Of a stretch of DNA of 64,000 bases, positions 24,868 to 42,205 are shown one piece after another (the first letter of the stretch is position 1; every line of letters begins with the position of its first letter). Both the position numbers and the translations under genes were made by a program. Origin of the DNA: Opitutia bacterium (lineage in GTDB: Bacteria > Verrucomicrobiota > Verrucomicrobiia > Opitutales > Opitutaceae); contig JACPIT010000005.1 in assembly GCA_016187945.1 (NCBI GenBank), positions 434,001-498,000 on the forward strand, given 5' to 3'. Below the pieces are notes generated by a model, which saw only the letters and a program-made list of their open reading frames with translations, was not told where the DNA came from and made no database searches.

Positions 24868-26835
24868 TCAAAACGCGCCGCTCTTGACGAAATCGTCGGC
24901 CGCGTAGCGGCGGAAGGCTTCGATCGCTTCGTATTCGGCGAGGCCGAGGGCGTTGTAGGCCTGGGCGAGGCGGCGGCTGCGATCCTCGGTGCGCTGCCAG
25001 AATTCGCGCCGGTCTTCGCCGAGGAAGAGCGCCTGGTCCTTTTGCGTCTCGTGGCGGAAAATCGCGCGGCGGCGGCGCAGCACTTCCTGCGGGCTGAGCG
25101 GCACGGCCAGGTCGATTTCATCGAGCGGCCACTCGGCCCACGCCCCGCGGTAGAGCCAGAGCTCGCTCTGGTCGAGCCAGGCGGATTTCTCCGCGGCGGC
25201 TTGCGCGAGCGCGTCGCGCAGAACGTGCAGGCATTGGCGGTGTGTGCCGTGCGGATCGTCGAGATCGCCCGCAGCGTAGACGAGATGCGGCTGCACTTGC
25301 TCGAGGACGCGACGCAGGCACGCGACGTCTTCGGCGCCGTAGCGGCGCGAGCGCGGCGCGGCGCCGTAGAACGGCAGGTCGAGGAAATGCAGGCGGCTCT
25401 CCGGCACGCCGCAGACGCGCGCGGCCGAGATCGCCTCGTGCCGGCGGATGAGCCCCTTCCAGCGCGAGAGTTCGGTCGACGGCGCGACGGTGCCAGCGGT
25501 GAGTTCGCCGCAAATCGCGTCGAGTCGCGCGCGGTTGGTCGTGTCGATGAGTCCGCTGTCGCGCACGAAGGCCAGCACGCGCCACGCGGCTTCATCGGTG
25601 ACCGCGTTGGCGCCGGAGACTTCGTAGGCGATGTGGACTTCGTGGCCTTGGTCGACGAGACGGCAGAGCGTGCCGCCCATCGAGATGACGTCGTCGTCGG
25701 GATGCGGCGAGAGCACGAGCACGCGTTTCGGAAACACGTTGGCCGACTTCGCACGGAGCGGGCGCACGGGGGCGTCGCCGGGCTTGGCGCGCTTCGGATC
25801 GCGTCCGCCGGGCCAGCCGGTGATCGTGTGCTGCATTTGGTAGAAGCCGATGAGGTTCGCCTCGTAGGCGGAGCCGTGCGTGCGGATCAAATCCTGCAGG
25901 CCGGCCTCGTTGTAGTCGTCGTCGGTGAGCTTGAGGATCGGCTTCTGGCGCAGTTGCGAAAGCCACAGAATGGCGCGGCGTGTCATGCGCTCGTCCCACG
26001 CGAGGCCCTGTTCCTCGAGCGGGCCGAGCAACCACGGCGTGCGGAAGCGCGTGAGCGAGCCCGCCGCGGCGGTGTCGACCACGAAGGTCGCGTCCGCGTG
26101 CTCCTGCAGAAACGACGCGGTGACGTGCGAGCTGACCTCGGCTTCGATCGCGGCTCGCACGATGTCGGCCTTGTGCTGGCCCCACGCCATGAGGATGAGG
26201 CGGCGGGCGTTGAGGATGGAGCGCACGCCCATCGTGATCGCGTAGCGCGGCGTATGCGCGTCGCCGCCGAAATCGCCCGCGGCGTCGCGGCGCGTGAGCG
26301 GATCGAGCGCGACCAGGCGCGTGAGCGAGTGGCGCGGGCTGCCCGGCTCGTTGAAACCGATGTGGCCGGTGCGGCCGATGCCGAGGATCTGGATGTCGAT
26401 GCCGCCGGCGGTGCGGATCGCCTCCTCGTAAGCGGCGCAATGCGCGTCGACCTCCGCCTTCGGCACGACGCCGGACGGCACGTGGGTGCGCGCGGGGTCG
26501 ACGTCGATGTGGTCGAACAGGTGCTGCTGCATGAAACGCCGGTAGCTCTGCGGGTGCGTCGGCGGCAGCGCGAAATACTCGTCGAGGTTGAACGTGGTGA
26601 CGTTCTTGAAGCTCAGGCCTTCCTCGCGGTGCAAGCGCACGAGTTCGGCGTAGACGCTGACGGGGGTGGAGCCGGTGGCGAGGCCGAGCACGCAGGTGCG
26701 GCCCTCCTGCGCGCGGGCGCGGATGAGCCCGGCGATCTCGGCGGCGACGGCGCGCGAGGCGTCGCGGCTGTGCGCGAAGACGGAGATCGGCGCATGTTCG
26801 AAGCGGCAGCGTTCGAGCAGGGGAAGCGAGTTCAT
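24868..26835 (-). CDS. nagB: Glucosamine-6-phosphate deaminase fused to a PIG-L/LmbE deacetylase domain
   Basis: 655 residues. Residues about 15-290 are a NagB domain: LGLATGSTP, TTFNLDEYFAL with catalytic D85, and GIGRTGHIGFNEPG (152-165). Residues about 368-655 are a PIG-L/LmbE domain with the zinc motif P-H-P-D-D-D (377-382) and later conserved histidines. This two-domain architecture is known as a glucosamine-6-phosphate deaminase-like protein. NagB converts GlcN-6-P to Fru-6-P and ammonia. The LmbE part is a good candidate for the preceding N-deacetylation of GlcNAc-6-P, since no NagA is seen (inference). The gene diverges from an AraC regulator. Confidence 0.9.
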   Translation of the reverse strand: MNSLPLLERCRFEHAPISVFAHSRDASRAVAAEIAGLIRARAQEGRTCVLGLATGSTPVSVYAELVRLHREEGLSFKNVTTFNLDEYFALPPTHPQSYRRFMQQHLFDHIDVDPARTHVPSGVVPKAEVDAHCAAYEEAIRTAGGIDIQILGIGRTGHIGFNEPGSPRHSLTRLVALDPLTRRDAAGDFGGDAHTPRYAITMGVRSILNARRLILMAWGQHKADIVRAAIEAEVSSHVTASFLQEHADATFVVDTAAAGSLTRFRTPWLLGPLEEQGLAWDERMTRRAILWLSQLRQKPILKLTDDDYNEAGLQDLIRTHGSAYEANLIGFYQMQHTITGWPGGRDPKRAKPGDAPVRPLRAKSANVFPKRVLVLSPHPDDDVISMGGTLCRLVDQGHEVHIAYEVSGANAVTDEAAWRVLAFVRDSGLIDTTNRARLDAICGELTAGTVAPSTELSRWKGLIRRHEAISAARVCGVPESRLHFLDLPFYGAAPRSRRYGAEDVACLRRVLEQVQPHLVYAAGDLDDPHGTHRQCLHVLRDALAQAAAEKSAWLDQSELWLYRGAWAEWPLDEIDLAVPLSPQEVLRRRRAIFRHETQKDQALFLGEDRREFWQRTEDRSRRLAQAYNALGLAEYEAIEAFRRYAADDFVKSGAF

Positions 26836-27004
26836 GGGAAGAGGGGAGCGGTGCGGGGAAAGTGGTTTTGTCGTGGCGAGACCCGCGAAGCGGACCGTGG
26901 CGATCCGGCTGGATCGCTGCGTCGCCGCCTGGCGGCGGCTCCTCGCGGGAACAGATCGAAGAAGGGCCTCACAGAATAGGGCTCGCACTCGTTCCTACAA
27001 CTAG

Positions 27005-27036
27005 CAGAAACGACGAAGTTTTTGACGAAAATGCCA
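27005..27036 (+). promoter_or_regulatory. Direct-repeat operator candidate S1 at the araC-type gene start
   Basis: GACGAA at 27012-27017 and 27024-27029, separated by gttttt, with flanks shared with sites at 30914 and 34157. The second half-site ends just before the regulator's ATG at 27031, a position suited to autoregulation. It is also about 170 bp upstream of the divergent nagB fusion. Confidence 0.6.
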
Positions 27037-27945
27037 CCCGCCAACACGCCCGACCTGCGCAAACTCGTCTCGAAGCTCCCGCAGCCGAACTTCCAGCTCC
27101 TCGGCCGCCGCCCTGCGCCGCTCCCGCTGCCGGCGAACATCGTCTGCTTCCAGCGCCAGCGTGCCGACGAGTTGAACAAGCCGCGTCGCGGTCGCGCGCT
27201 GCATCATCGCTTCGTGCTCATCTGCGCGCTGCGCACGGCGGTGACGGTCTGCGTCGACGACCGCAACATCCGCCTCGACGCCGGCGAGGCGCTGCTGGTG
27301 TTTCCGTTTCAATTTCACCACTACGTCGACCCGCAGCGCGAGGACATCGCGTGGCTATTCGTGACCTTCGAGCTGGGCGACGCCGAGCCGCTCGCAGCGT
27401 TGCGTTTCCGGCCGTTTGGGCTCTCCGGGGCGTTGCGGGCGCTCGCGGCGGAGCTCGTCGAAGCCTACGAGACCGAGCGGACGGAGGAGCTGCCGGTGCT
27501 GCTGCTCGCGCTGCTCCTCGCGCGCATCCGGCGCCTCAAGCACGCCACGCCGCACCACGCGCCGCCGCCGGCGCCGGAGCCGGAGCAGGGGCTGATGCTT
27601 CGCATCAACCAGATCGCCCAGCGCAGCGGCGCGCCGCCGAGCATCAAGGAACTGGCTCGCGCGCTCGGCATCAGCTCGAGCCACCTGCGCGCGCGGTTTC
27701 GCGCGTCGTGCGGCGTGAGCATCGGGCGGCACCTGCGGCGGCTGCGACTCGAGCAAGCGTGCGGTTTGCTGCGCCTCGGCCCGCAGCGCGTTTCCGAGAT
27801 CGCGGAGCAATGCGGGTTTGGATCGATCTACAGTTTCTCGCGCGCGTTCCGCCTCGCCTACGGCATCTCGCCGCTGGCCTTCCGCCACAGCGGACGAAAA
27901 AACCCGACGCTCACGGGCCGCAGCCGCGTGCGGAAACGCCGGTAG
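27031..27945 (+). CDS. AraC-family transcriptional regulator with N-terminal cupin-type domain
   Basis: 304 residues. The N-terminal half has a cupin-like sensing region (RRGRALHHRFVLICAL, IRLDAGEALLVFPFQFHHYVD). The C-terminal 90 residues are the two-HTH AraC domain: IKELARALGISSSHLRARF and VSEIAEQCGFGSIYSFSRAFRLAYGISPLAF. The ATG at 27031 is preferred over a TTG at 27022. Its start codon abuts a direct-repeat motif that also occurs upstream of both nearby TonB receptors, so it is the obvious candidate regulator. The stop codon TAG belongs to a GTAGGGCG repeat. Confidence 0.88.
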   Translation: MPPANTPDLRKLVSKLPQPNFQLLGRRPAPLPLPANIVCFQRQRADELNKPRRGRALHHRFVLICALRTAVTVCVDDRNIRLDAGEALLVFPFQFHHYVDPQREDIAWLFVTFELGDAEPLAALRFRPFGLSGALRALAAELVEAYETERTEELPVLLLALLLARIRRLKHATPHHAPPPAPEPEQGLMLRINQIAQRSGAPPSIKELARALGISSSHLRARFRASCGVSIGRHLRRLRLEQACGLLRLGPQRVSEIAEQCGFGSIYSFSRAFRLAYGISPLAFRHSGRKNPTLTGRSRVRKRR

Positions 27946-28023
27946 GGCGCCGCCGTCACACGCTCGCGGCAGTCGCCGACCGGCGGTGACGATCTGCAAG
28001 GTGCGCCGCCGTTCGCGTGCGGG

Positions 28024-28085
28024 GTAGCGGAATTCGTGAGAATTTCGCCGGTCGTTGCTCGCGAAAGCCTCACGGCTTCCGCTAC
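28024..28085. repeat. REP-like pair, family D
   Basis: Left arm: GTAG, then CGGAATTC-gtga-GAATTTCG. Right arm on the other strand: GTAG, then CGGAAGCC-gtga-GGCTTTCG. Stem bases change in a compensatory way (A-T pairs to G-C pairs) while the loop stays gtga. The remainder of 27946-28173 holds only a partial GTAGGGCG arm. Confidence 0.8.
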
Positions 28086-28173
28086 GCGGCAAAAATCCTC
28101 CGCGAGCGGCGCCGCGCGTCATCCGCGCCTTCGCGCTTGGCGTGACCGCACGACGTTGCGCTAGGCTGCGGGC

Positions 28174-29460
28174 GTGGAGGACTCTCGTTCGCAGGCGAAT
28201 TCGATTTCGGTGCTGACACTTGGCGTCGGCGCTTTCGCGCACAGCGCCGGCGGCGTGCTGGCGGACAATGGCGCGCGCGTCGCGACCTATCTGACGCGCG
28301 CCTACGCGCATTTTCCGCCGTCGCTCGTCGGGCCGACGTTCGACCAGGCGCAGCATCCGTCGCCGCTGCCACTGCTGCGCGAGCGCGGCGTGCAGCTCGT
28401 GCTCCCGCAGTCGATCGACTGGGCGCGCGCGCCGTGGGCGGACGAGATGCTGGCGTCGGGCGCCGGCATTCTCTCGCCGACGGGCGAGGGGATGCGCATC
28501 GAGCGCGAGCGGGATTTCGCGCGCGAGCTCTGTGCGCGTTTCGGCGTGCCGTTCCCGCGCGCGCACGTCGCGGCGACTCGCGCGGAGGCCGAGGTGATTC
28601 TCGCGCGCGACCGCCGGCCGTTCGTGATCAAGAACCCGCTCTGCTCGCCCAACAGCCCGATCCACACGATCGTCTGCGAAACGGTCGAGGAGACGCGGGC
28701 GTGGCTGCAACACGTCAACGATGCCGAGGGCGTTTTTCTCCAGGAATACGCGGGCCGCGCCGAAGCCGGGCACATCGCGCTCGTGAGCGGGGGCGAGATC
28801 GTTTCGCTCGTCACGAACCAGGAATACAAGCGCGCCTTCGCCGGCAATCTCGGCATCGTGGCCGGCGCGCCGCTCGGCGGCATCGTCGAGCGCGACGAGC
28901 GTGACCGCTACGGCCTCGCGCGCGAGCTGCTGCATCCGTTGCGACCATGGTTCCGCGAGGTCGGTTTCCACGGCCCGATCCAAGTCACCGCCGCACACCA
29001 CGAGGGCCGCTGGCAAGTGCTCGAATACAACATCCGCATCGGCGTCACCTCCGGCGCGATGATCCTGCGCATGCTGACGAATCCGCTCGAGACGCTGCTC
29101 GCCGCCACGCGCAACCAGCCGCTCGCGCCGCGCTGGCGCGACGGCATGGCGTTCGGCGCGTCGGTGACGCTCGCGGGCTACGGTTATCCGTTCACGCAGA
29201 TCGTCGGTCCGCCGATGCCGATCGAAACCGACGCTGCGCCCGACGGCCGCACGTGCGACCTCTGGTGGAACGAAGTCGGTCGCGCGCCCGACGGCCGCCT
29301 GCTCGCGCTCGGCCACCGGCTCGCGGACGCGGTCGGTTACGGCGCGGACTTGCCGACCGCCCTCGCGCGCGCCTACGCGGCGATCCGCCGCGTGCGCACG
29401 ACCGGCAGCTACTACCGCAACGACGTCGGCCAGTCGCTCTGGCCGCCGGGGAATGTGTGA
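28174..29460 (+). CDS. PurD-like ATP-grasp protein
   Basis: 428 residues from a GTG. The ATP-grasp core resembles phosphoribosylamine-glycine ligase (PurD): ERERDFARELCARFGVPFPRAH, FVIKNPLCSPNSP, FLQEYAGRAEAGHIALVSGG, and LEYNIRIGVTSGAMILRML in the metal-binding position. The N-terminal segment (VLTLGVGAFAHSAGGVLADNG) differs from the G-G-R-E-H-A motif of true PurD, which suggests a different acceptor substrate. Databases would probably label it PurD. It lies 177 bp before alanine racemase, so an amino-acid or peptide ligase role is possible. Its function is unproven. Confidence 0.7.
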   Translation: MEDSRSQANSISVLTLGVGAFAHSAGGVLADNGARVATYLTRAYAHFPPSLVGPTFDQAQHPSPLPLLRERGVQLVLPQSIDWARAPWADEMLASGAGILSPTGEGMRIERERDFARELCARFGVPFPRAHVAATRAEAEVILARDRRPFVIKNPLCSPNSPIHTIVCETVEETRAWLQHVNDAEGVFLQEYAGRAEAGHIALVSGGEIVSLVTNQEYKRAFAGNLGIVAGAPLGGIVERDERDRYGLARELLHPLRPWFREVGFHGPIQVTAAHHEGRWQVLEYNIRIGVTSGAMILRMLTNPLETLLAATRNQPLAPRWRDGMAFGASVTLAGYGYPFTQIVGPPMPIETDAAPDGRTCDLWWNEVGRAPDGRLLALGHRLADAVGYGADLPTALARAYAAIRRVRTTGSYYRNDVGQSLWPPGNV

Positions 29461-29480
29461 TGATGAGCGCGACGACGTTG

Positions 29481-29602
29481 ACCACAGAACACACAGAATC
29501 AGCTTCCTGCTCGGCTGAATCTCGAAGGCTGCGAAGCAAAGTTGCAGCCGAGGTGACGAGGCTGCTGCGGCTCCGGCCTGGCCCTTCCGTGTGTTCTGTG
29601 GT
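29481..29602. repeat. Long intergenic palindrome ('accacagaacacac' type)
   Basis: ACCACAGAACACAC (29481-29494) and its exact reverse complement GTGTGTTCTGTGGT (29589-29602) enclose about 95 bp. It fills the gap between the PurD-like gene and alr. Confidence 0.7.
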
Positions 29603-29637
29603 TCTTCTCTCTGGAAGGCGCCGGTCTGCTTCTCCGC

Positions 29638-30810
29638 ATGAACTCGCCTGAAGATTCCGTTGCTCCGTCCGGCTTCGCCGCCGCGCTCGCGCTGCGCCCC
29701 GCGTGGGTCGAGATCGACGTTGCGCAATGGCGGCGGAACTGGGCGCTCATCCGCGCGGAGATGCCCCACGGACTCGGCTTCATCGCCGTCGTGAAAGACG
29801 ACGCCTACGGCCACGGCATGCTCATCGCGGCGCGACTCGCGTTTGAACACGGCGCGCTCGCGCTCGCGGTCCCGACGCTCGCCGAAGCGGTCGCGTTGCG
29901 CGAGGCCGGCCTCGATGCACCGATCCTCCTCCTCGGCCCGCGGCATCCCAGCGAACTCGACCTCTGCGTGCGCCACGCGCTCACCTGCACGATCGCGGAG
30001 GAGGCCGACATCGCGCCGCTCGCGAGCGCCGCGGCGCGCGCCGGACGGCAGGCCGCCGTTCACCTCAAGATCAACACCGGCATGAACCGCTACGGCGTCG
30101 CGCCGGAGAACGCCGTCGCGCTCGCTCATGCGATTCTTGCCGAGCCGGCGCTGCGGCTCGAGGGCGTGTTCAGCCACTTCGCGCAATCGGACGAGCGCGA
30201 CAAGACGTTCGCGGACGTGCAACTCGAGCGCTTCCGCTCCGCGCTCGCGCAACTCGCCGCCGCGGGCGTGCGCGTGCCCCGGCGGCATCTCTGCAACAGC
30301 GGCGGCTACCTCGATCTGCCGCGCGCGCATTTCGACGCCGTGCGCCTCGGCATCCTGCCGCTCGGCGTTTATCCGTCGCAGGTCTGCCGCCGCATCCCTG
30401 GGCTCGCGCCGGTGCTCTCGGTGAAGGCGCGCATCGCCGCGCTCCAGTCGCTCGCGCCGGGCGAGCACGTCGGCTACGGCATGCGCTTCACGGCGGCGAC
30501 GCCGCGGCGCATCGCCGTGCTGCCGCTCGGCTACGGCGACGGTTTCCCGCGCGTGCGCAACGAGGGCGACGTGCTTCTCCGCGGCCGCCGCGCGCCGATC
30601 GTGGGCGGCGTTTCGATGGATGCCCTCTTTGTCGACGTGACCGACGTGCCCGGCGTGGAACGCGGGGACGTGGCGACGCTGCTCGGCCGCGACGGCGCGG
30701 AGGAAATCACCGCGCACGACCTCGCCGCGCTCAAGCGCTCCGTGAGCTACGATCTGCTCTGCGCCTGGCGCGCCCGCCTGCCGCGGCACATGAGTCGCGC
30801 GTCCGGTTGA
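29638..30810 (+). CDS. alr: Alanine racemase
   Basis: 390 residues, PLP-dependent fold type III. The PLP lysine lies in V-V-K-D-D-A-Y-G-H-G (most homologues have K-A-N-A-Y-G-H-G). The catalytic tyrosine is in GEHVGYGMRF, and KINTGMNRYGV and LPLGYGDGFPR are family motifs. It converts L-Ala to D-Ala for murein synthesis in the cytosol. Its presence beside D-amino-acid and murein genes fits the local theme. The ATG at 29638 is the only good start. Confidence 0.94.
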   Translation: MNSPEDSVAPSGFAAALALRPAWVEIDVAQWRRNWALIRAEMPHGLGFIAVVKDDAYGHGMLIAARLAFEHGALALAVPTLAEAVALREAGLDAPILLLGPRHPSELDLCVRHALTCTIAEEADIAPLASAAARAGRQAAVHLKINTGMNRYGVAPENAVALAHAILAEPALRLEGVFSHFAQSDERDKTFADVQLERFRSALAQLAAAGVRVPRRHLCNSGGYLDLPRAHFDAVRLGILPLGVYPSQVCRRIPGLAPVLSVKARIAALQSLAPGEHVGYGMRFTAATPRRIAVLPLGYGDGFPRVRNEGDVLLRGRRAPIVGGVSMDALFVDVTDVPGVERGDVATLLGRDGAEEITAHDLAALKRSVSYDLLCAWRARLPRHMSRASG

Positions 30811-30913
30811 AGCGAAGCGGCAGATTCGGCGCGTTGCTCCGATATTTTCCAACCGGGCGCGCCTCGCGGCGCGAACATGCCGTGCCTCAGCCGGCAAAAT
30901 GGGGAATTTTTCC

Positions 30914-30955
30914 CATTGTCGAAAATGACGAACTTTTTGACGAAAATGATATGGT
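30914..30955 (+). promoter_or_regulatory. Direct-repeat operator candidate S2 upstream of TonB receptor 1
   Basis: GACGAA at 30927-30932 and 30939-30944, separated by cttttt, preceded by GTCGAAAAT and followed by aatgat. It ends 149 bp before the receptor start and shares about 30 of 35 positions with S1 and S3. Confidence 0.65.
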
Positions 30956-31103
30956 CTTTCGCGCTTCCCCTCTGAAATCGAGAAGCGTGAAAAAACAGGG
31001 AAAGAATTCTGCTTGGAGCCTTCGGCGCTACGTTCTTAAGGACCAGACCAGTTCGGTCGCTTTACCCTCCAACACCTAACCACCGGCCGAACTCCTGCAC
31101 ACC

Positions 31104-34103
31104 ATGAGTAAACTGCACGTGAGTTCTCCTCCGTTCTCCGGGCTTTGGCGCATGCTCTTTTGCGCCATCGCCATTTTCGCGACCTCGGGCCTCGCGGTCT
31201 TCGCCGCCGATACCGCGCGAGTGACCGGCACGGTTGTCAGCAAAAGCACCGGCAACGCCCTGCAAGGCGCGCAGGTGACCGTCGCGGGACGTTCCGCCTT
31301 CACGGACGAGAGCGGACGTTTCACGATCTTCGACGTTCCGGTCGGCAACGCCCAAGTCACGGCGTCCTACTCGGGCTTCAAAGACATTACGCAGGAGGCC
31401 GCGGTCTCGTCGTCCGGCCTGGCCGATTTCACGCTGACGCTCGAGACCGCCGACGTTTTAACCCTCGCACCGTTTACGGTGCAGTCGGTCAAGGAAGGCC
31501 AGGCCCTCTCCGTCACCGAGCAGCGCAACGCCGGTAACATCAAAACGGTGGTCTCCCTCGATGAGTGGGGCGTCCTCCCGACCCAGAACGTCGGCGAGCT
31601 TGCCGCGCGCCTGCCCGGCGTCACGTTCACCACCGACGAGGACGATCTGATCTTCAACATCTCGATCCGCGGCCAGCCCGACAGCTACACCCGCCTCAAC
31701 ATCGATGGAATGTCAGCGACCGGTGTTTCCGGCGTGGGCCGCACGGCCACGCTGCACTCGTTCTCGGCTTCCAATTACGAGGCGATCGAGATCGTCGCCG
31801 CGCAAACGCCCGACAAGCGCGCCGATTCCCTCGGCGGCCAGGTCAATCTTCGCACCCGCTCGCCGCTCGCGATGAAGGAAAAGCGCCGCATCACCTACAA
31901 CTTTAACGGTCGATACTTTCCCTCGTGGTCGAAACGCAACGTCCCGCTTTCCGATCATCCGCTCCATCCCGACTTGAGCGTCGGCTACACCGAAATTTTC
32001 GATGTGTTCGGTGGCAAACGCAATCTCGGCATCGCGATCAACGCCTCGTATCAGGAGGTGGTCAACCAGATCGACTACGACTTCCTCCAGTATCAAAACA
32101 TCGCCGACCCGGTTGCATATTTCCACGACTACGACAAGCGCTCGGGCATCAATCACCGGTTCATCCAGGGCTTCTCCGCGCGCGCCGATTATCGCGTGAC
32201 GGACAACACCACTGCCTCGCTCACGTTCATCTACAACGCCGGCTACGAACCCTACTACGATCGCGTCCGCGTCAATCCCTTCGGCACGCGCACGATCTAC
32301 AACGGCAGCACCGGCCTTGTCCTGCCCGGCTACACCGCCAACCGCACCGAGATCCGCCAGGCCGCCGGCACCCGCTTCGACGTCGAGACCTGGAACTTCT
32401 CCTTCGTTTCCAAGAATCCCACCGGCACACTTCGCTTCGAGCACGACTGGGACCGCCTCAAGGTCGACCACGCCTACCGCTGGTCCATGACCCGTTGGCA
32501 TTCCGGCCACGGTCTCGATGGCCAAGGCGGCCAATACGTCTCGCGCCTCAACGCCCCGCTCGGCTTCATCCTCGATAACTCCGATCTCGACGGCAAGGTC
32601 TTCACCCAGACCGGTGGTCCGTCCGTGTGGGACATCAACAGCTACACGCCGATTCTGCTGACCAACGCCAACACGACGACCATCCCGGTCCCCCAGACCT
32701 CCCGCAGCTTCGTCCAGCGCGACACCGTCACCAAGACCAACGAGGTCACTGGCACCATCAACGCACAATACCAGTTCGACACGAAATACCCGCTATCCCT
32801 GAAAGTCGGCCTCGACTCACAGAATCGTCGCGTGAACAGCTACCAAGTCAGCCCGCGCCGCTGGTATGGCGTTATCGGATCGGTCCTCAACACCGACCTC
32901 ATGCCGCTCAGCGAATTCGAGGTTCAAAACGGCACCGGCGGCCAGCGCGTCGCAGCGTTCAAGCCGTCTGCCGTCAGCAACACCCTCAGCAATTCCGCGC
33001 TCTGGTATGAGGACGTGAATTTCAACGCCACCGCACCCTATATCGGCCGGCGCATCCTCGAGGAGGGCGTGGATTCCGCCTACATCCAGGCGGATGCCCG
33101 TTTCGGCAAGCTCCGTCTCGTCGGCGGCGTCCGCAACGAAAGCGTCAAGACTGAGACCTTCACCTACTTCCGCGCCCGCTCGACCCTGATCTCCGACCAA
33201 CCCGACCACTACAAGCGCGCCGCGATGGACTACAACGCCAACATCCTTGACGGCAAATACTCGAAGTCGTTCCCGAGTGTGCACTTCACCTACGATATCA
33301 CGCCCAACCTGAAACTCCGTGGTGGCTGGGCCAAGACCTACGGCCGCCCGCTCCTCGCTCAGATGATTCCCGGCGTCACGGCCAACGACGCCACCCAAAG
33401 CGTCACCATCGGCAATCCCTCGCTCCTGCCGCAGCTCGGCGAAGGTTACGACCTCAAGCTCGATTACTACTTCAAGAACTCCGGCAAGCTCACTGCCGGC
33501 GTCTTCAAGAAGACGATCACTGACTACATCGGCTCCGCTCGCACGGTCGACCTCACCGTTCCCAGCGGTCCCGACAACGGCTTCGACGGACTCTACGGCG
33601 GCTACATCATCTCCCAGTCCATCAACCTCGGCGACGCCAAGATCGAGGGCATCGAGATCGATTACAGCCAACGCCTCTCGATGCTCCCTGGAGCGCTCAA
33701 AGGACTCACGATCTCCGCCAACTACACCTACCAGCGCACGGAAGGTAATTTTGGCGGCACCACGCCCCTCAACACCGATCAGGTGGCCGGGTTCGTCCCG
33801 CGCCTCTTCAACGCCCGCGTGCTGTATAACTACAAGAAATTCGGCGCCTCCTTCGACGCCAACTTCAAGGGCGCCTACCTCGTCGCTTATAGCACGACTG
33901 CCGGTGCGAGTCGTTTTCAGGCCGACCTCCTCCGCTACAACGTCGGCTTCTCGTGGCGCTATCGTCCCGAGGCCACCTTTTTCCTGAACTTCGACAACAT
34001 TACCGAGGAAGGCCCCGAGCAGTATTTCTATACGCCGAGTCGCATCAGCCAGCGCCTCATTGCCCCGACAGCGATCAAATTCGGCGTCACCGGCACGTTC
34101 TGA
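31104..34103 (+). CDS. TonB-dependent receptor with N-terminal carboxypeptidase-regulatory-like domain
   Basis: 999 residues. A signal peptide (about 15-35, ending A-V-F-A-A) is followed by a carboxypeptidase-D regulatory-like beta-sandwich (ARVTGTVVSKSTGNALQGAQV, about 38-115). A plug domain has VGELAARLPGVTF and an S-I-R-G motif. A 22-strand barrel ends in F-G-V-T-G-T-F with the C-terminal aromatic residue needed for outer-membrane insertion. It imports a ligand across the outer membrane with TonB-ExbBD energy. The ligand is unknown. No SusD partner is adjacent. The S2 motif lies upstream. Confidence 0.92.
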   Translation: MSKLHVSSPPFSGLWRMLFCAIAIFATSGLAVFAADTARVTGTVVSKSTGNALQGAQVTVAGRSAFTDESGRFTIFDVPVGNAQVTASYSGFKDITQEAAVSSSGLADFTLTLETADVLTLAPFTVQSVKEGQALSVTEQRNAGNIKTVVSLDEWGVLPTQNVGELAARLPGVTFTTDEDDLIFNISIRGQPDSYTRLNIDGMSATGVSGVGRTATLHSFSASNYEAIEIVAAQTPDKRADSLGGQVNLRTRSPLAMKEKRRITYNFNGRYFPSWSKRNVPLSDHPLHPDLSVGYTEIFDVFGGKRNLGIAINASYQEVVNQIDYDFLQYQNIADPVAYFHDYDKRSGINHRFIQGFSARADYRVTDNTTASLTFIYNAGYEPYYDRVRVNPFGTRTIYNGSTGLVLPGYTANRTEIRQAAGTRFDVETWNFSFVSKNPTGTLRFEHDWDRLKVDHAYRWSMTRWHSGHGLDGQGGQYVSRLNAPLGFILDNSDLDGKVFTQTGGPSVWDINSYTPILLTNANTTTIPVPQTSRSFVQRDTVTKTNEVTGTINAQYQFDTKYPLSLKVGLDSQNRRVNSYQVSPRRWYGVIGSVLNTDLMPLSEFEVQNGTGGQRVAAFKPSAVSNTLSNSALWYEDVNFNATAPYIGRRILEEGVDSAYIQADARFGKLRLVGGVRNESVKTETFTYFRARSTLISDQPDHYKRAAMDYNANILDGKYSKSFPSVHFTYDITPNLKLRGGWAKTYGRPLLAQMIPGVTANDATQSVTIGNPSLLPQLGEGYDLKLDYYFKNSGKLTAGVFKKTITDYIGSARTVDLTVPSGPDNGFDGLYGGYIISQSINLGDAKIEGIEIDYSQRLSMLPGALKGLTISANYTYQRTEGNFGGTTPLNTDQVAGFVPRLFNARVLYNYKKFGASFDANFKGAYLVAYSTTAGASRFQADLLRYNVGFSWRYRPEATFFLNFDNITEEGPEQYFYTPSRISQRLIAPTAIKFGVTGTF

Positions 34104-34156
34104 CGCGCCGCGTCTTTCTTTGCGCGCGCACCTGGGTTCCCCGGGTGCGCGCGTTG

Positions 34157-34195
34157 CATTGTCGGAAACGACGAACTTTTTGGCCAAAACGCCAA
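34157..34195 (+). promoter_or_regulatory. Direct-repeat operator candidate S3 upstream of TonB receptor 2
   Basis: GACGAA at 34170-34175, then cttttt, then the variant half-site GGCCAA at 34182-34187; the preceding GTCGGAAAC matches S2. It ends 184 bp before the receptor start. Confidence 0.6.
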
Positions 34196-34378
34196 CGTGT
34201 GCGGCGCGTTGGCTCGGACGTCATTGGGGTGGCCGAAAGGCGAAACTAATCTTCTTGGACGCCTCGCGCGTTGGACTAGACACGACCCCGACCCCCGGTG
34301 GACAAGCCTGAACACCTTGGCCCGGTTCTTGCGCACACTCACCTCCGCAAGAGCTACAGCACACAAAAATCCAGACCT

Positions 34379-37321
34379 ATGAACGCACGTTACCTACGGA
34401 GCCGGTCCTTGCTCGCATTCTTCGCGAGCGCCGCCGCGCTCTCCACCGCGGTGGCGCAAACCGCCCCCGCTGCGAACGACGAGAAAAAGGACGAGGCCGT
34501 CAAACTCGAGAAGTTCGTCGTCACCGGTTCCTCCATCAAGCGCCCCGCCGACGAGGGCGCGTTGCCGATCTCGGTCTTCACGCAGCTCGACCTACAGCAA
34601 GAGGGCATCGCGAGCGCCGAGCAGTTGATCATGAACCTCAACATCAACGGCAACGGCCTCGACAATCTGGCGTCGAACGCCGACGTCGTCGCCGGCGCCG
34701 CTCGCGGCAACAACGGCGCCACCGCCGCCAACCTCCGCGGCCAAGGCTCGAACGCCACGCTCGTTCTCCTCAACGGTCGCCGCGTCGCTTCGCACGGCCT
34801 CAACGGCGGCGTGGTCGACCTCAACTCGATTCCGTTTGCGGCGATCGATCGGGTCGAAGTCCTCAAGGACGGCGCCTCCGCCGTTTACGGCACCGATGCC
34901 ATCGGCGGCGTCATCAACTTTATCACGAAAACCGATTTCCGCGGCCTCGTGGCCAACGCCTCCTCCGACATCACCGAAGACGGCGGCGGCAACATCTTCC
35001 GCTACTCGCTCGTCGGCGGTTGGGGCAGCCTCCACAAGGACGGCTGGAACGTCATGGCCTCTCTCGCCCTCGCCGACCACAAGATGCTCCGCGGCGACCA
35101 GCGCGACTTCGTCAATACCTTCCAACCCGCGCGCGGCATCTCGCCCGATACCCGCGGCACTCCGATCGCCACGCTCTTTGCCGCGGCCAATCTGCCCACG
35201 GCACTCGGACCGAGCAGCACAGGACCGGTTGATCCGGCCAACTCCGCGATCCGCGTCAACGGCATCAACATCATCGACCTTCCGACCAACACCGCCGGCT
35301 ACGCCGGCCTCGATGGCATGGGCCCCTACGAAGAAGTCCTCTGGGGCGCGACTTCCGCCAGCGGCAACGGCAAATACGGCTCCGCGTGGGACACCGGCCG
35401 CGCCGCCGTCCTTCAGCAGCCAGTCAAAAACACCAACTTCGTTGGCCGTGGCTCCTACAAGCTCGGTGAGCACATCCTGTCGGTCGAGGCAGTCATCAGC
35501 CGGTCGGACTCCACGAAGAGTTTCTCGCCCAACCAATGGAGCACCGCGGGCCTCACCTCCGCCGGCGCGCAGACCACCACGACCACCGCCAACGGCACCG
35601 TCGTGCCGAATCCGCTCTCCGGCATGGTCTACCCCAGCAGCGGCGCCGACTACAACCGCGTCTTCAACGCGCTCGTCGCCTACTTCCCCGCGCTCGAAGC
35701 CAATCGGGGTCTGCCGCTCGCTTTCCGCTGGCGTTCGCTCCCCGGCGGCAATCGCGAGATCAACACGGTCAGCGACACCCGCCGCTTCCTCGTGGCGATG
35801 GAAGGACCGCTCCGCCTCCCGGGCAAATACTTCTCCGAATGGGAATATCGCGCCGGCGTCGCGCAGGCACAGAGCGAGTCCAAGTCGAAATTGTTGAACG
35901 GCTATTACTACACCGTTCCCTTCGCGAACCTGATCAAGACCGGCGTCCTCAGCCCATTCTCGTATGAACAATCGCAGGCCGCGATGGACGGCCTCAAGGC
36001 CGCCTCAGCTACCGGTGTAGAACTCTATGGCGGCACCTTCACGACGACCTCGGGCGACTTCACGGCCTCCGGTCCGGTCTTTGCCTTGCCCGCCGGCGAA
36101 GTCCAAGCCGCCATCGGCTTGGATTACCGCAAGGAAGAATACGAGTTCAAGGGCGACCCGCGCACGAACGTGAGCACGGCCGACTCCCTCATTTTCAACG
36201 TGCCCTTCGACAACGCCCTCGCCACCGCCGGCACGCTCAGCCGCACCGTGAAGGCCGTCTTCGCCGAAGTGCAGGTTCCGATCTTCAAAGGTGTCGACCT
36301 CAACGTCGCCGGCCGTCGCGACGAATACACCGGCTTCGGCTCCACCACGAATCCGAAGATCACCCTCCGCATCTCGCCCAACGAAAAAATCCTCCTCCGC
36401 GGCTCCTACAGCACCGGTTTCCGCGTGCCGACCTTCAAGCAGCAGTTCGACCCGTCCTTCGAGTCAATCTACGCCGGCGCCGACCTGACCGATCCGGTCA
36501 CTGGCCAGCTCATCCCGCCCAATAGCCTCAACACGATCAGCGGCGGCAAGGCCGACTTGAAACCCGAGGAGGCCGATATGATTTCCTACGGCGTCGTGTT
36601 CTCCCCGGTCAAAAACATCACCCTCGGCGCCGACTGGTGGTCGATCAACCGCGACGGCACCATCCAGACGCTCGGCACCTCCGTCATCCTCGCCAACTAC
36701 CAGCTCTTCCCCGATCGCATCATCCGCAACAGCTCGAATGCCATCACGAAGATCGACGTCCGCCCGCTCAACGCCGGCCAGACCGAGACCAGCGGCATCG
36801 AGTATACCGGCCGCGGCGAATTCGACCTCTTCGGCGGAAAGATCGTCGGCGACATCAACGTCTCGCAGCTCCTCAAGAAGCGCTCGAAGCTCGTCGCCTC
36901 CGCAGCGTGGGGCGCCAGCGAAGTCGGCCGCTTCACCCGCGCTTCCGACATCGGCCTGAAGTGGAAATACACCGCCGCCGTCTCCTATCGCAAAGGCAAG
37001 TGGACCGGCCGCGTCAGCCAGCTCTTCCGCGCCGGCTACATGGACTACGTCCCGCCCGGCATCGCCAACGGCGCCTACCTGTCGAAGGCGACGGAATACA
37101 ACCCGAAGGTCGGCGAATACATCACCTACAACGCCAGCCTCACCTACAAGTGGAGCAAGGACGTGACGATCATCGCCGGCATCAAGAACCTCCTTAACGA
37201 AGATCCGCCGTTCTCGATCGCCTACGACACCAACACCGGCGCCGGCAGCTCGTGGGAGCCCCGCGTCGCCGACCCGCGCGGCCGCTCGTTCACGCTCTCG
37301 GTCGAATACAAACTCTTCTAA
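34379..37321 (+). CDS. TonB-dependent receptor
   Basis: 980 residues. The signal peptide is about 1-27, ending A-V-A-Q. A TonB-box-like segment KLEKFVVTGSSIKR is followed by a plug with ATLVLLNGRRVASHGLNGGVVDLNSIP and VEVLKDGASAVYGTDAIGGVINF, both typical of this receptor type, and a barrel ending in S-V-E-Y-K-L-F. The ATG at 34379 gives a standard signal peptide; starts further upstream do not. It is encoded 275 bp after receptor 1 with its own S3 motif and ends in a terminator. The ligand is unknown. Confidence 0.92.
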   Translation: MNARYLRSRSLLAFFASAAALSTAVAQTAPAANDEKKDEAVKLEKFVVTGSSIKRPADEGALPISVFTQLDLQQEGIASAEQLIMNLNINGNGLDNLASNADVVAGAARGNNGATAANLRGQGSNATLVLLNGRRVASHGLNGGVVDLNSIPFAAIDRVEVLKDGASAVYGTDAIGGVINFITKTDFRGLVANASSDITEDGGGNIFRYSLVGGWGSLHKDGWNVMASLALADHKMLRGDQRDFVNTFQPARGISPDTRGTPIATLFAAANLPTALGPSSTGPVDPANSAIRVNGINIIDLPTNTAGYAGLDGMGPYEEVLWGATSASGNGKYGSAWDTGRAAVLQQPVKNTNFVGRGSYKLGEHILSVEAVISRSDSTKSFSPNQWSTAGLTSAGAQTTTTTANGTVVPNPLSGMVYPSSGADYNRVFNALVAYFPALEANRGLPLAFRWRSLPGGNREINTVSDTRRFLVAMEGPLRLPGKYFSEWEYRAGVAQAQSESKSKLLNGYYYTVPFANLIKTGVLSPFSYEQSQAAMDGLKAASATGVELYGGTFTTTSGDFTASGPVFALPAGEVQAAIGLDYRKEEYEFKGDPRTNVSTADSLIFNVPFDNALATAGTLSRTVKAVFAEVQVPIFKGVDLNVAGRRDEYTGFGSTTNPKITLRISPNEKILLRGSYSTGFRVPTFKQQFDPSFESIYAGADLTDPVTGQLIPPNSLNTISGGKADLKPEEADMISYGVVFSPVKNITLGADWWSINRDGTIQTLGTSVILANYQLFPDRIIRNSSNAITKIDVRPLNAGQTETSGIEYTGRGEFDLFGGKIVGDINVSQLLKKRSKLVASAAWGASEVGRFTRASDIGLKWKYTAAVSYRKGKWTGRVSQLFRAGYMDYVPPGIANGAYLSKATEYNPKVGEYITYNASLTYKWSKDVTIIAGIKNLLNEDPPFSIAYDTNTGAGSSWEPRVADPRGRSFTLSVEYKLF

Positions 37322-40555: not shown

Positions 40556-42205
40556 ATGAAAGCACCTGAAATCATGGCCCTGCTCCACGCCGCCAGCGAC
40601 GCCGATCTCGTCACCGCCTGCCAGGGCGGCAATCGCTCGGCGTTCGAGCAGATCGTGGGGCGCTACCAGCGCCTGCTCTGCTCGCTGGCCTACTCGGCGC
40701 TCGGCGACATCGCCGCGAGCGAAGATGTGGCGCAGGAGACCTTCGTCACCGCCTGGCTCAAGCTCGGCGAACTGCGCGAGCCGGAAAAGCTCCGCTCGTG
40801 GCTGTGCGCCATCCTGCGCTTTAAGATCAGCCACGCCCGCCGCTCGGCCGGACGCGAACCGGTGTGCGATGCCACGCCGCTCGACGGGGCGCTCGAACTC
40901 CCGAGCGAGGACGCGTCGGCCGACGAGACGGCCATGGCGCGCGACGAGCAGGCACTCGTCTGGCGGGCGTTGCGGACCCTGCCGGAAATCTACCGCGAGC
41001 CCCTCGTGCTGTTTTATCGCGAACATGGTTCGATCGAGCATGTGGCGGCGGAACTCGATCTCACCGAAGACGCCGTGAAACAGCGCCTCGCGCGCGGGCG
41101 CAAGCTGCTCAAGGATCAGGTGCTCGCCCTCGTCGAGGGGGCGCTGGCACGCAGCACGCCGGGCCGCGTGTTCACTTTCGGCGTGCTCGCGGCGCTGCCC
41201 GCGCTGACGCCTCCGGCCCAGGCCGCTGCTGTCGGCGCCGCCGCCGTCGCGACGAAGGGTGTCGGCGGCCTCGCCAAACTCGCCGCGTTCGCGGCCCTGC
41301 TCGCCTCGGTCAGCGGCTTCGTCACCACCGTGATGACGCTGCGCATGAACCTCGACCAGGCGCGCACCGCTCGAGAACGCCGCGCCGTGGTCGTCGTGAC
41401 CGCGGTGTTGTTCGGGAGCTTCGTCGGCTTCCTTCTGTTCGTGTTCGCGCTGCGGGTCGCGGCCGCGCGCTGGCCGGACCGGCTGCCTGCCATCGCCGCG
41501 GTGCACCACGCCGCGGTCGTGGCGTTCGCTGCGGGCTGGTCGCTCGCGCTGCTTCGCAGTCTCCGCTTTTCGAGCGAACTGCGCACCGCCGAGCGGCGGC
41601 GCGAGCCGGAAAAATTTTCGCACCCCGCCGATCGCGCGGGCTCGCGCCAGTCGGAATATCGCAGCCGCGCGACGTTGCTGGGGTTGCCGCTCGTGCACGT
41701 CCGTTTTTCGACTCCCGATGCGGGACAAGGGCCGGCCCTCGGCTGGATCGCGGGTGGCGATCGTGCGGTCGGCCTGCTGTTCGCGTATGGCGGCTGGGCC
41801 GTCGGCGGCGTGAGCGTGGGCGGCGTGACGTTCGGACTCGTTTCCCTCGGCGCGGTGAGCACAGGCGTGCTCAGCCTCGGCGCGATCTGCTTCGGCGGCG
41901 TCGCGTTCGGTTCGGTGTCGGTCGGCTGGCGCGTGTTCGGCTCGCTTTCCGCCACTGCCTGGGAAACGGCGCAGAGCCTCGGACTGGCGTTCTCGCACTT
42001 CGTCGCGGCCGGACCGTTCGCGCTCGCGCCGCATGCCAACGACGAATTCGCGCGCCGGTTCCTGGCCAACCCGCACGCCGATCGCGAGTGGCTGATTTTC
42101 TGCACGCTCACCGCCTTGCTGGCGCTCGTGCCGACGACGCTCTACGTCCGCGCCGCGCGCCGCCGCATGAGCCGCTTGGCGGCGCCAGACACGCCGCCGT
42201 CCTGA
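40556..42205 (+). CDS. ECF sigma factor fused to a membrane and glycine-repeat domain
   Basis: 549 residues. Residues about 20-95 are sigma region 2 (YSALGDIAASEDVAQETFVTAW) and 130-185 sigma region 4 (ALRTLPEIYREPLVLFYREHG, DAVKQRLARGRKLL). After that come three or four hydrophobic segments (about 205-260, 277-302 and 312-335). Then follows a glycine-rich stretch (about 405-463) with repeating G-G-V-x-x-G-x-V units, and a last membrane helix near 505-520. The fusion would tether a sigma factor to the inner membrane. No anti-sigma gene is adjacent, so the extension may itself control activity. Confidence 0.85.
   Translation: MKAPEIMALLHAASDADLVTACQGGNRSAFEQIVGRYQRLLCSLAYSALGDIAASEDVAQETFVTAWLKLGELREPEKLRSWLCAILRFKISHARRSAGREPVCDATPLDGALELPSEDASADETAMARDEQALVWRALRTLPEIYREPLVLFYREHGSIEHVAAELDLTEDAVKQRLARGRKLLKDQVLALVEGALARSTPGRVFTFGVLAALPALTPPAQAAAVGAAAVATKGVGGLAKLAAFAALLASVSGFVTTVMTLRMNLDQARTARERRAVVVVTAVLFGSFVGFLLFVFALRVAAARWPDRLPAIAAVHHAAVVAFAAGWSLALLRSLRFSSELRTAERRREPEKFSHPADRAGSRQSEYRSRATLLGLPLVHVRFSTPDAGQGPALGWIAGGDRAVGLLFAYGGWAVGGVSVGGVTFGLVSLGAVSTGVLSLGAICFGGVAFGSVSVGWRVFGSLSATAWETAQSLGLAFSHFVAAGPFALAPHANDEFARRFLANPHADREWLIFCTLTALLALVPTTLYVRAARRRMSRLAAPDTPPS

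Follow-up and report, generated by a model that had tools for sequence, protein, structure and literature searches.

Classical AraC half-sites are direct repeats two helical turns apart, and at araI1-araI2, in front of the araBAD operon of Escherichia coli, two such half-sites (araI1 reads TAGCATTTTTATCCATA) lie 21 bp apart against the activated -35 element, with the regulator gene divergent. Another AraC-family regulator of E. coli, ChbR, controls the chitobiose genes and with them amino-sugar uptake and catabolism. Variation in promoter arrangement is known from MarA, SoxS and Rob, which recognise a bipartite marbox, GCAHWWWWTGYYAAA; in MarA-controlled promoters this box is placed either forward and overlapping the -35 element (class II) or, usually reversed, further upstream (class I) (PMC6900184).

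Within a 64,000-nucleotide stretch of the genome of an Opitutia bacterium (the window), three copies of a 36-bp element lie next to a gene for an AraC-family regulator, a divergent nagB-PIG-L fusion gene and two genes for TonB-dependent receptors (Table 1). The original prediction had described these sites as sharing about 30 of 35 bases around GACGAA-N6-GACGAA in one orientation. Their likeness is strong and that figure slightly generous: aligned in one register, any two of the sites agree at 27-29 of 36 positions, and at 21-22 of 24 in the core. All three are present on the plus strand, as predicted, and the distances of 149 and 184 bp given from the site ends then drawn to the receptor start codons at 31104 and 34379 are correct. 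The pair of GACGAA units is present in sites 1 and 2, the second unit of site 3 being GGCCAA, and site 1 does more than abut the start of the AraC gene, as its ATG at 27031 lies inside the site.

These copies are not what chance would produce. Allowing up to three mismatches, a 20-bp core matches three times in the window against 0.02 expected matches, and a 24-bp pattern derived from the window alone matches exactly three times in the 5.47-Mb genome (estimated completeness 96 percent), in every case at these sites; over the whole genome the 24-bp pattern gave no match on the other strand and none for a reversed control. A profile search of the genome returned the same three sites with E-values of 2.4e-12, 4.2e-10 and 1.2e-9, which are not independent since the three sites were part of the profile training, and a next best match of 0.27. 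The motif is thus confined to these three sites and is not found at random positions genome-wide, the outcome that had been named as counting against a shared operator. The three sites are real and exceed chance.

Table 1 Features of the candidate regulon in the window.
Feature	Position	Strand	Sequence	Description
NagB (glucosamine-6-phosphate deaminase) fused to PIG-L/LmbE-like deacetylase	24868-26835	-		Putative target gene; PF01182, PF02585; NCBIfam PRK02122, 890 bits
-10 hexamer of nagB-PIG-L	26973-26978	-	TATTCT	TAnnnT at +23..+28 of the operator
-35-like hexamer of nagB-PIG-L	26995-27000	-	TTGTAG	Directly against operator 1
Operator 1	27001-27036	- (as read toward nagB)	CTAGCAGAAACGACGAAGTTTTTGACGAAAATGCCA (plus-strand register)	Candidate, common to araC and nagB-PIG-L; AraC start codon inside
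AraC-family regulator	27031-27945	+		Proposed cognate regulator; cupin-like ligand domain and two-HTH DNA-binding domain; PF12833, PF00165, PF02311
Operator 2	30916-30951	+	TTGTCGAAAATGACGAACTTTTTGACGAAAATGATA	Candidate, upstream of TonB receptor 1
Downstream element	30970-30975	+	CTCTGA	Lies at ~+19 past the operator end; conserved ahead of receptor genes
-35-like element before TonB receptor 1	31012-31017	+	CTTGGA	61 bp after operator 2
TonB-dependent receptor 1	31104-34103	+		PF00593, PF07715, PF13620 (carboxypeptidase-regulatory-like domain)
Operator 3	34159-34194	+	TTGTCGGAAACGACGAACTTTTTGGCCAAAACGCCA	Candidate, upstream of TonB receptor 2
Variant of the +19 element	34213-34218	+	CTCGGA	
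Element before TonB receptor 2	34254-34259	+	CTTGGA	60 bp after operator 3
TonB-dependent receptor 2	34379-37321	+		PF00593, PF07715

Comparison of the motif profile with itself revealed a direct repeat at 21 bp (z = 3.5; p = 2e-4 when columns are permuted, or about 0.005 once the 26 shifts are corrected for), and across 29 family sites the mean self-identity is 0.56 at 21 bp and at most 0.38 at any other shift. The 12-bp repeat GACGAA-N6-GACGAA was not significant in the profile self-comparison (p = 0.15) and was rejected as the functional symmetry; an inverted repeat with TGGCA...TGCCA arms did less well than the 21-bp one (best p = 0.002 among many centres tried, and off-centre). The conserved period is therefore two helical turns and not the single turn originally proposed. 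In the direction of nagB the two half-sites read approximately TGGCATTTTCGTCAAAA (half-site 1) and CGTCGTTTCTGCCATTT, and direct-repeat half-sites at this distance are what an AraC-type operator contains; an AraC-family dimer would sit on them in tandem, on one face of the DNA. Half-site 1 resembles araI1, although its internal spacing seems to be less by 1 bp, and both half-sites resemble the marbox but for a spacer that is shorter by one base. A MarA monomer occupies a single box, whereas here there are two.

The regulator has the two-HTH C-terminal domain of the family (PF12833, E = 2.8e-20; PF00165, E = 2.1e-17 with two stretches) and, borderline, the N-terminal cupin-like domain of the AraC subgroup (PF02311, 21.5 bits against a cut-off of 21.1). 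Among PDB chains it comes closest to AraC-type DNA-binding domains, those of RamA, Rob, MarA, SoxS and AraC among them. Against the equivalog model for the arabinose regulator AraC it scores 48.8 bits, well under the cut-off of 208. Genes nearby encode a PBP4-type carboxypeptidase, an L-Ala-D/L-Glu epimerase-like enzyme, an N-acetylmuramoyl-L-alanine amidase-like protein and an M20 peptidase, as well as an anhydro-MurNAc kinase (AnmK), an AmpG-like transporter, an AmpD-like amidase, a NagZ-like hexosaminidase and a NagX-like glucosamine N-acetyltransferase (212.8 bits, under its cut-off of 480). By annotation, several of these assignments scoring below family cut-offs, the cluster looks like one for peptidoglycan and amino-sugar recycling. 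The same cluster holds an ECF-type sigma factor gene with a long membrane-like C-terminal extension (40556-42205), which is kept in close relatives. Between araC and receptor 1 lie ATP-grasp (GARS-like) and alanine racemase genes (28174-30810); these look like an insertion, because L034-L036, the closest relatives, have the operator and receptor 1 immediately after araC.

At site 1 the element adjoins a putative promoter of nagB-PIG-L. In 40 aligned loci read toward nagB, positions +1..+6 after the operator are TT-rich, often TTGT, and -35-like in most, and positions +23..+28 hold TATTAT or a close variant. Among 53 loci scored for a -10 element, a TAnnnT at +23..+28 is present at 46 of 47 sites with nagB adjacent versus 1 of 5 without it, one further site without nagB being left out as its contig ends too soon. 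A forward site against the -35 element at a fixed distance from the -10 is the geometry of a class II AraC-family promoter, and the bound regulator would probably activate nagB-PIG-L by touching RNA polymerase. The nagB start lies 166 bp from the operator in the window, compared with 39-114 bp in nearly all relatives, owing to a longer leader. This leader (26835-26973) exceeds that of most relatives by ~100 bp; a search of 20500-45000 for known RNA elements gave no Rfam match, in the leader or elsewhere.

The operator stays with nagB at six loci where araC lies elsewhere (L125, L130, L132, L133, L136 and L142), and in L130, L132 and L136 separate copies stay with araC. In close relatives the AraC start lies within the operator or directly beside it. 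At L118, L115, L168 and L111, where nagB was not found alongside (the L115 contig ends 183 bp beyond the site, so that absence of nagB is not established there), the AraC-side site scores only 19-36, whereas the receptor-side site keeps 54-64 in L118, L115 and L111; L112, with 58.8 at AraC and no nagB alongside, is an exception. The fusion gene, at first put forward as no more than a possible target, is with its fixed -10 geometry and its retained site now the best-supported one, and nagB-PIG-L is probably the ancestral target of site 1. Autoregulation of araC, also predicted, is plausible from the position of the site over the start codon; it fares less well where the AraC-side site has degenerated in genomes without an adjacent nagB. 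Since the operator remains beside nagB in genomes where araC has moved, control of araC is a weaker claim than control of nagB and, as the main function of site 1, lacks good support. The degenerate AraC-side sites in loci without nagB suggest that site 1 is kept mainly for nagB and that repression of araC would be a by-product: the regulator would also lie over the start of its own gene and, if anything, would repress it there.

The receptor-side operators have the orientation opposite to that on the nagB side. Among 17 aligned receptor-side sites CTTGGA is invariant, and its distance from the operator is mostly 59-62 bp (~38 bp in two genomes). A weak TA lies ~17-19 bp after CTTGGA; the -10 there is weak and, for receptor 1 of the window, differently spaced. 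An element CTCT(G/A)A occurs at ~+19, at a nearly fixed distance, in most receptor-side sites. The orientation fits an upstream reverse (class I-like) site, but the distance of 59-62 bp to CTTGGA does not: the operator lies ~110 bp upstream of the presumed receptor start, far for simple contact with polymerase, whereas a MarA class I site lies ~50-70 bp upstream of the start. From its reversed position ~60 bp before CTTGGA the regulator would probably activate the receptor genes from upstream. Two promoter orientations are thus used here as by MarA, SoxS and Rob. In contrast to araBAD, the receptor genes carry the operator reversed and further upstream, and the divergent target is an amino-sugar enzyme and not the arabinose genes. 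A profile of the receptor promoters matched with good scores only the two receptor promoters in genome G000, both of them in its training set. CTTGGA was rejected as a general promoter element of the genome (CTTGGA-N17-TANNNT, 2 matches versus 9 in the reversed control), and a search with CACTCT-N33..42-CTTGGA gave one unrelated match only.

Conservation gives good support to the central claim of the original prediction, that one operator is common to the AraC gene and both receptors. The same 36-bp element, its edges sharp in the alignment of relatives, recurs in corresponding positions in dozens of Opitutaceae genomes, next to the AraC ortholog or its neighbour nagB-PIG-L and ahead of the TonB receptors. 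Where regulator orthologs are 73-88 percent identical, gene order is much the same, with operators before AraC/nagB and before the receptors, and orthologous placement is kept down to ~50 percent regulator identity; the named relatives of the regulator belong to Opitutus, Lacunisphaera, Didemnitutus and other Opitutaceae/Opitutia. A profile search found the motif at E < 1e-4 in 32 of 150 family genomes, of which 30 carry a close AraC ortholog, compared with 43 of 150 overall (Fisher p = 5e-19, ignoring shared ancestry; the genomes are related, and the counts are not independent events). In the remaining two (G093 and G118) the matches lie near contig ends and an AraC ortholog was not found. 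Thirteen of the 43 genomes with a regulator ortholog, mostly more distant ones, have no match at E < 1e-4, and motif score follows regulator identity (Spearman 0.83), which partly reflects distance from the training sites.

We also scored 13 loci held out of profile training. The operator adjoins AraC in 11, within ~55 bp of its start and with regulator identity of at least 65 percent in all, at scores of 36-63 versus a best score below 0 in 65 shuffled loci; the two loci without an operator have distant regulators (41 and 47 percent identity). A -10 in the nagB direction lies at +23..+28 in 10 of these 11 operators; L168, also among the 11, is weaker and has no nagB-type promoter. Outside the family, 177 genomes of the order gave only weak partial matches (E = 1.7e-4 to 9e-4). 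Regulator paralogs (~31-54 percent identity) occur at L047, L044 and L045 in G007 and G031, with no operator or a weak one nearby.

Judging from comparative sequence analysis, we think it rather likely that the sites are operators of the regulator encoded at 27031-27945, and that this protein activates nagB-PIG-L and the receptor genes in response to an amino-sugar or cell-wall inducer. The inducer would be an amino sugar or a cell-wall fragment because the targets and their neighbours are amino-sugar and peptidoglycan-recycling genes. The same protein might instead mainly repress its own gene and those of the receptors, the latter through binding at a distance or a loop joining sites 3-4 kb apart, until the inducer releases it. 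Classical AraC is an activator that also represses by looping, and such a role would suit a site 1 that covers the AraC start codon and receptor-side operators that lie far from CTTGGA. Class II activation, however, agrees with the unvarying contact at the nagB -35 and with the conserved spacing of the -10, and, L112 excepted, the site beside AraC decays in L118, L115, L168 and L111 while the one before the receptor is kept in three of them; we regard repression as the main role as unlikely.

Binding by a different regulator encoded elsewhere, with the AraC gene a bystander or a mere target, seems more doubtful still. G093 and G118, which carry the motif and in which no AraC ortholog was found, would be explained in this way, although both matches are near contig ends; tandem half-sites at 21 bp are an AraC-type signature, the motif co-occurs strongly with the AraC ortholog group, and operator copies accompany araC where it lies apart from nagB. 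A dispersed repeat, or recent duplication, without regulatory function is a highly improbable source of the three copies, given only three copies in the genome, orthologous places that are kept, sharp edges and fixed promoter spacing; receptor promoters 1 and 2 are nevertheless alike beyond the operator, and one may be a copy of the other.

Searches on AraC/TonB in Opitutus, on TonB-dependent N-acetylglucosamine regulons and on Verrucomicrobia peptidoglycan recycling, which covered part of the literature, did not find this regulon. It appears to be undescribed, but the kind of switch is ordinary and works like known AraC-family regulators; ChbR, likened here by description only, is similar in its AraC-family control of amino-sugar uptake and catabolism and differs in gene set. 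The regulator and its sites could constitute, and here our confidence falls a little short of even, an undescribed AraC-type regulon in part of the Opitutaceae that employs one operator in two opposite promoter arrangements and couples NagB-PIG-L to TonB receptors which bring cell-wall fragments, either muropeptides or amino sugars, through the outer membrane. Such a regulon would give the little-studied Verrucomicrobiota and Opitutaceae a precise, testable set of operator, regulator and targets, would suggest amino sugars or muropeptides as the class of substrate for two receptors whose cargo cannot be read from sequence alone, and would point to TonB-dependent uptake coupled to peptidoglycan recycling. 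It would also offer a comparative example of one operator in two promoter geometries.

In other genera L122 has a TonB receptor gene, and L145 a GH20 hexosaminidase gene, behind an operator in the nagB-type geometry, and in L128 an equally spaced site lies ahead of a ROK-like gene; receptors and amino-sugar genes therefore recur as targets while the promoter arrangement differs. In one genus (L130, L132, L133 and L128) an extra operator lies before a gene of ~490 aa that adjoins PIG-L and PfkB-kinase genes and has a weak ROK match in L128.
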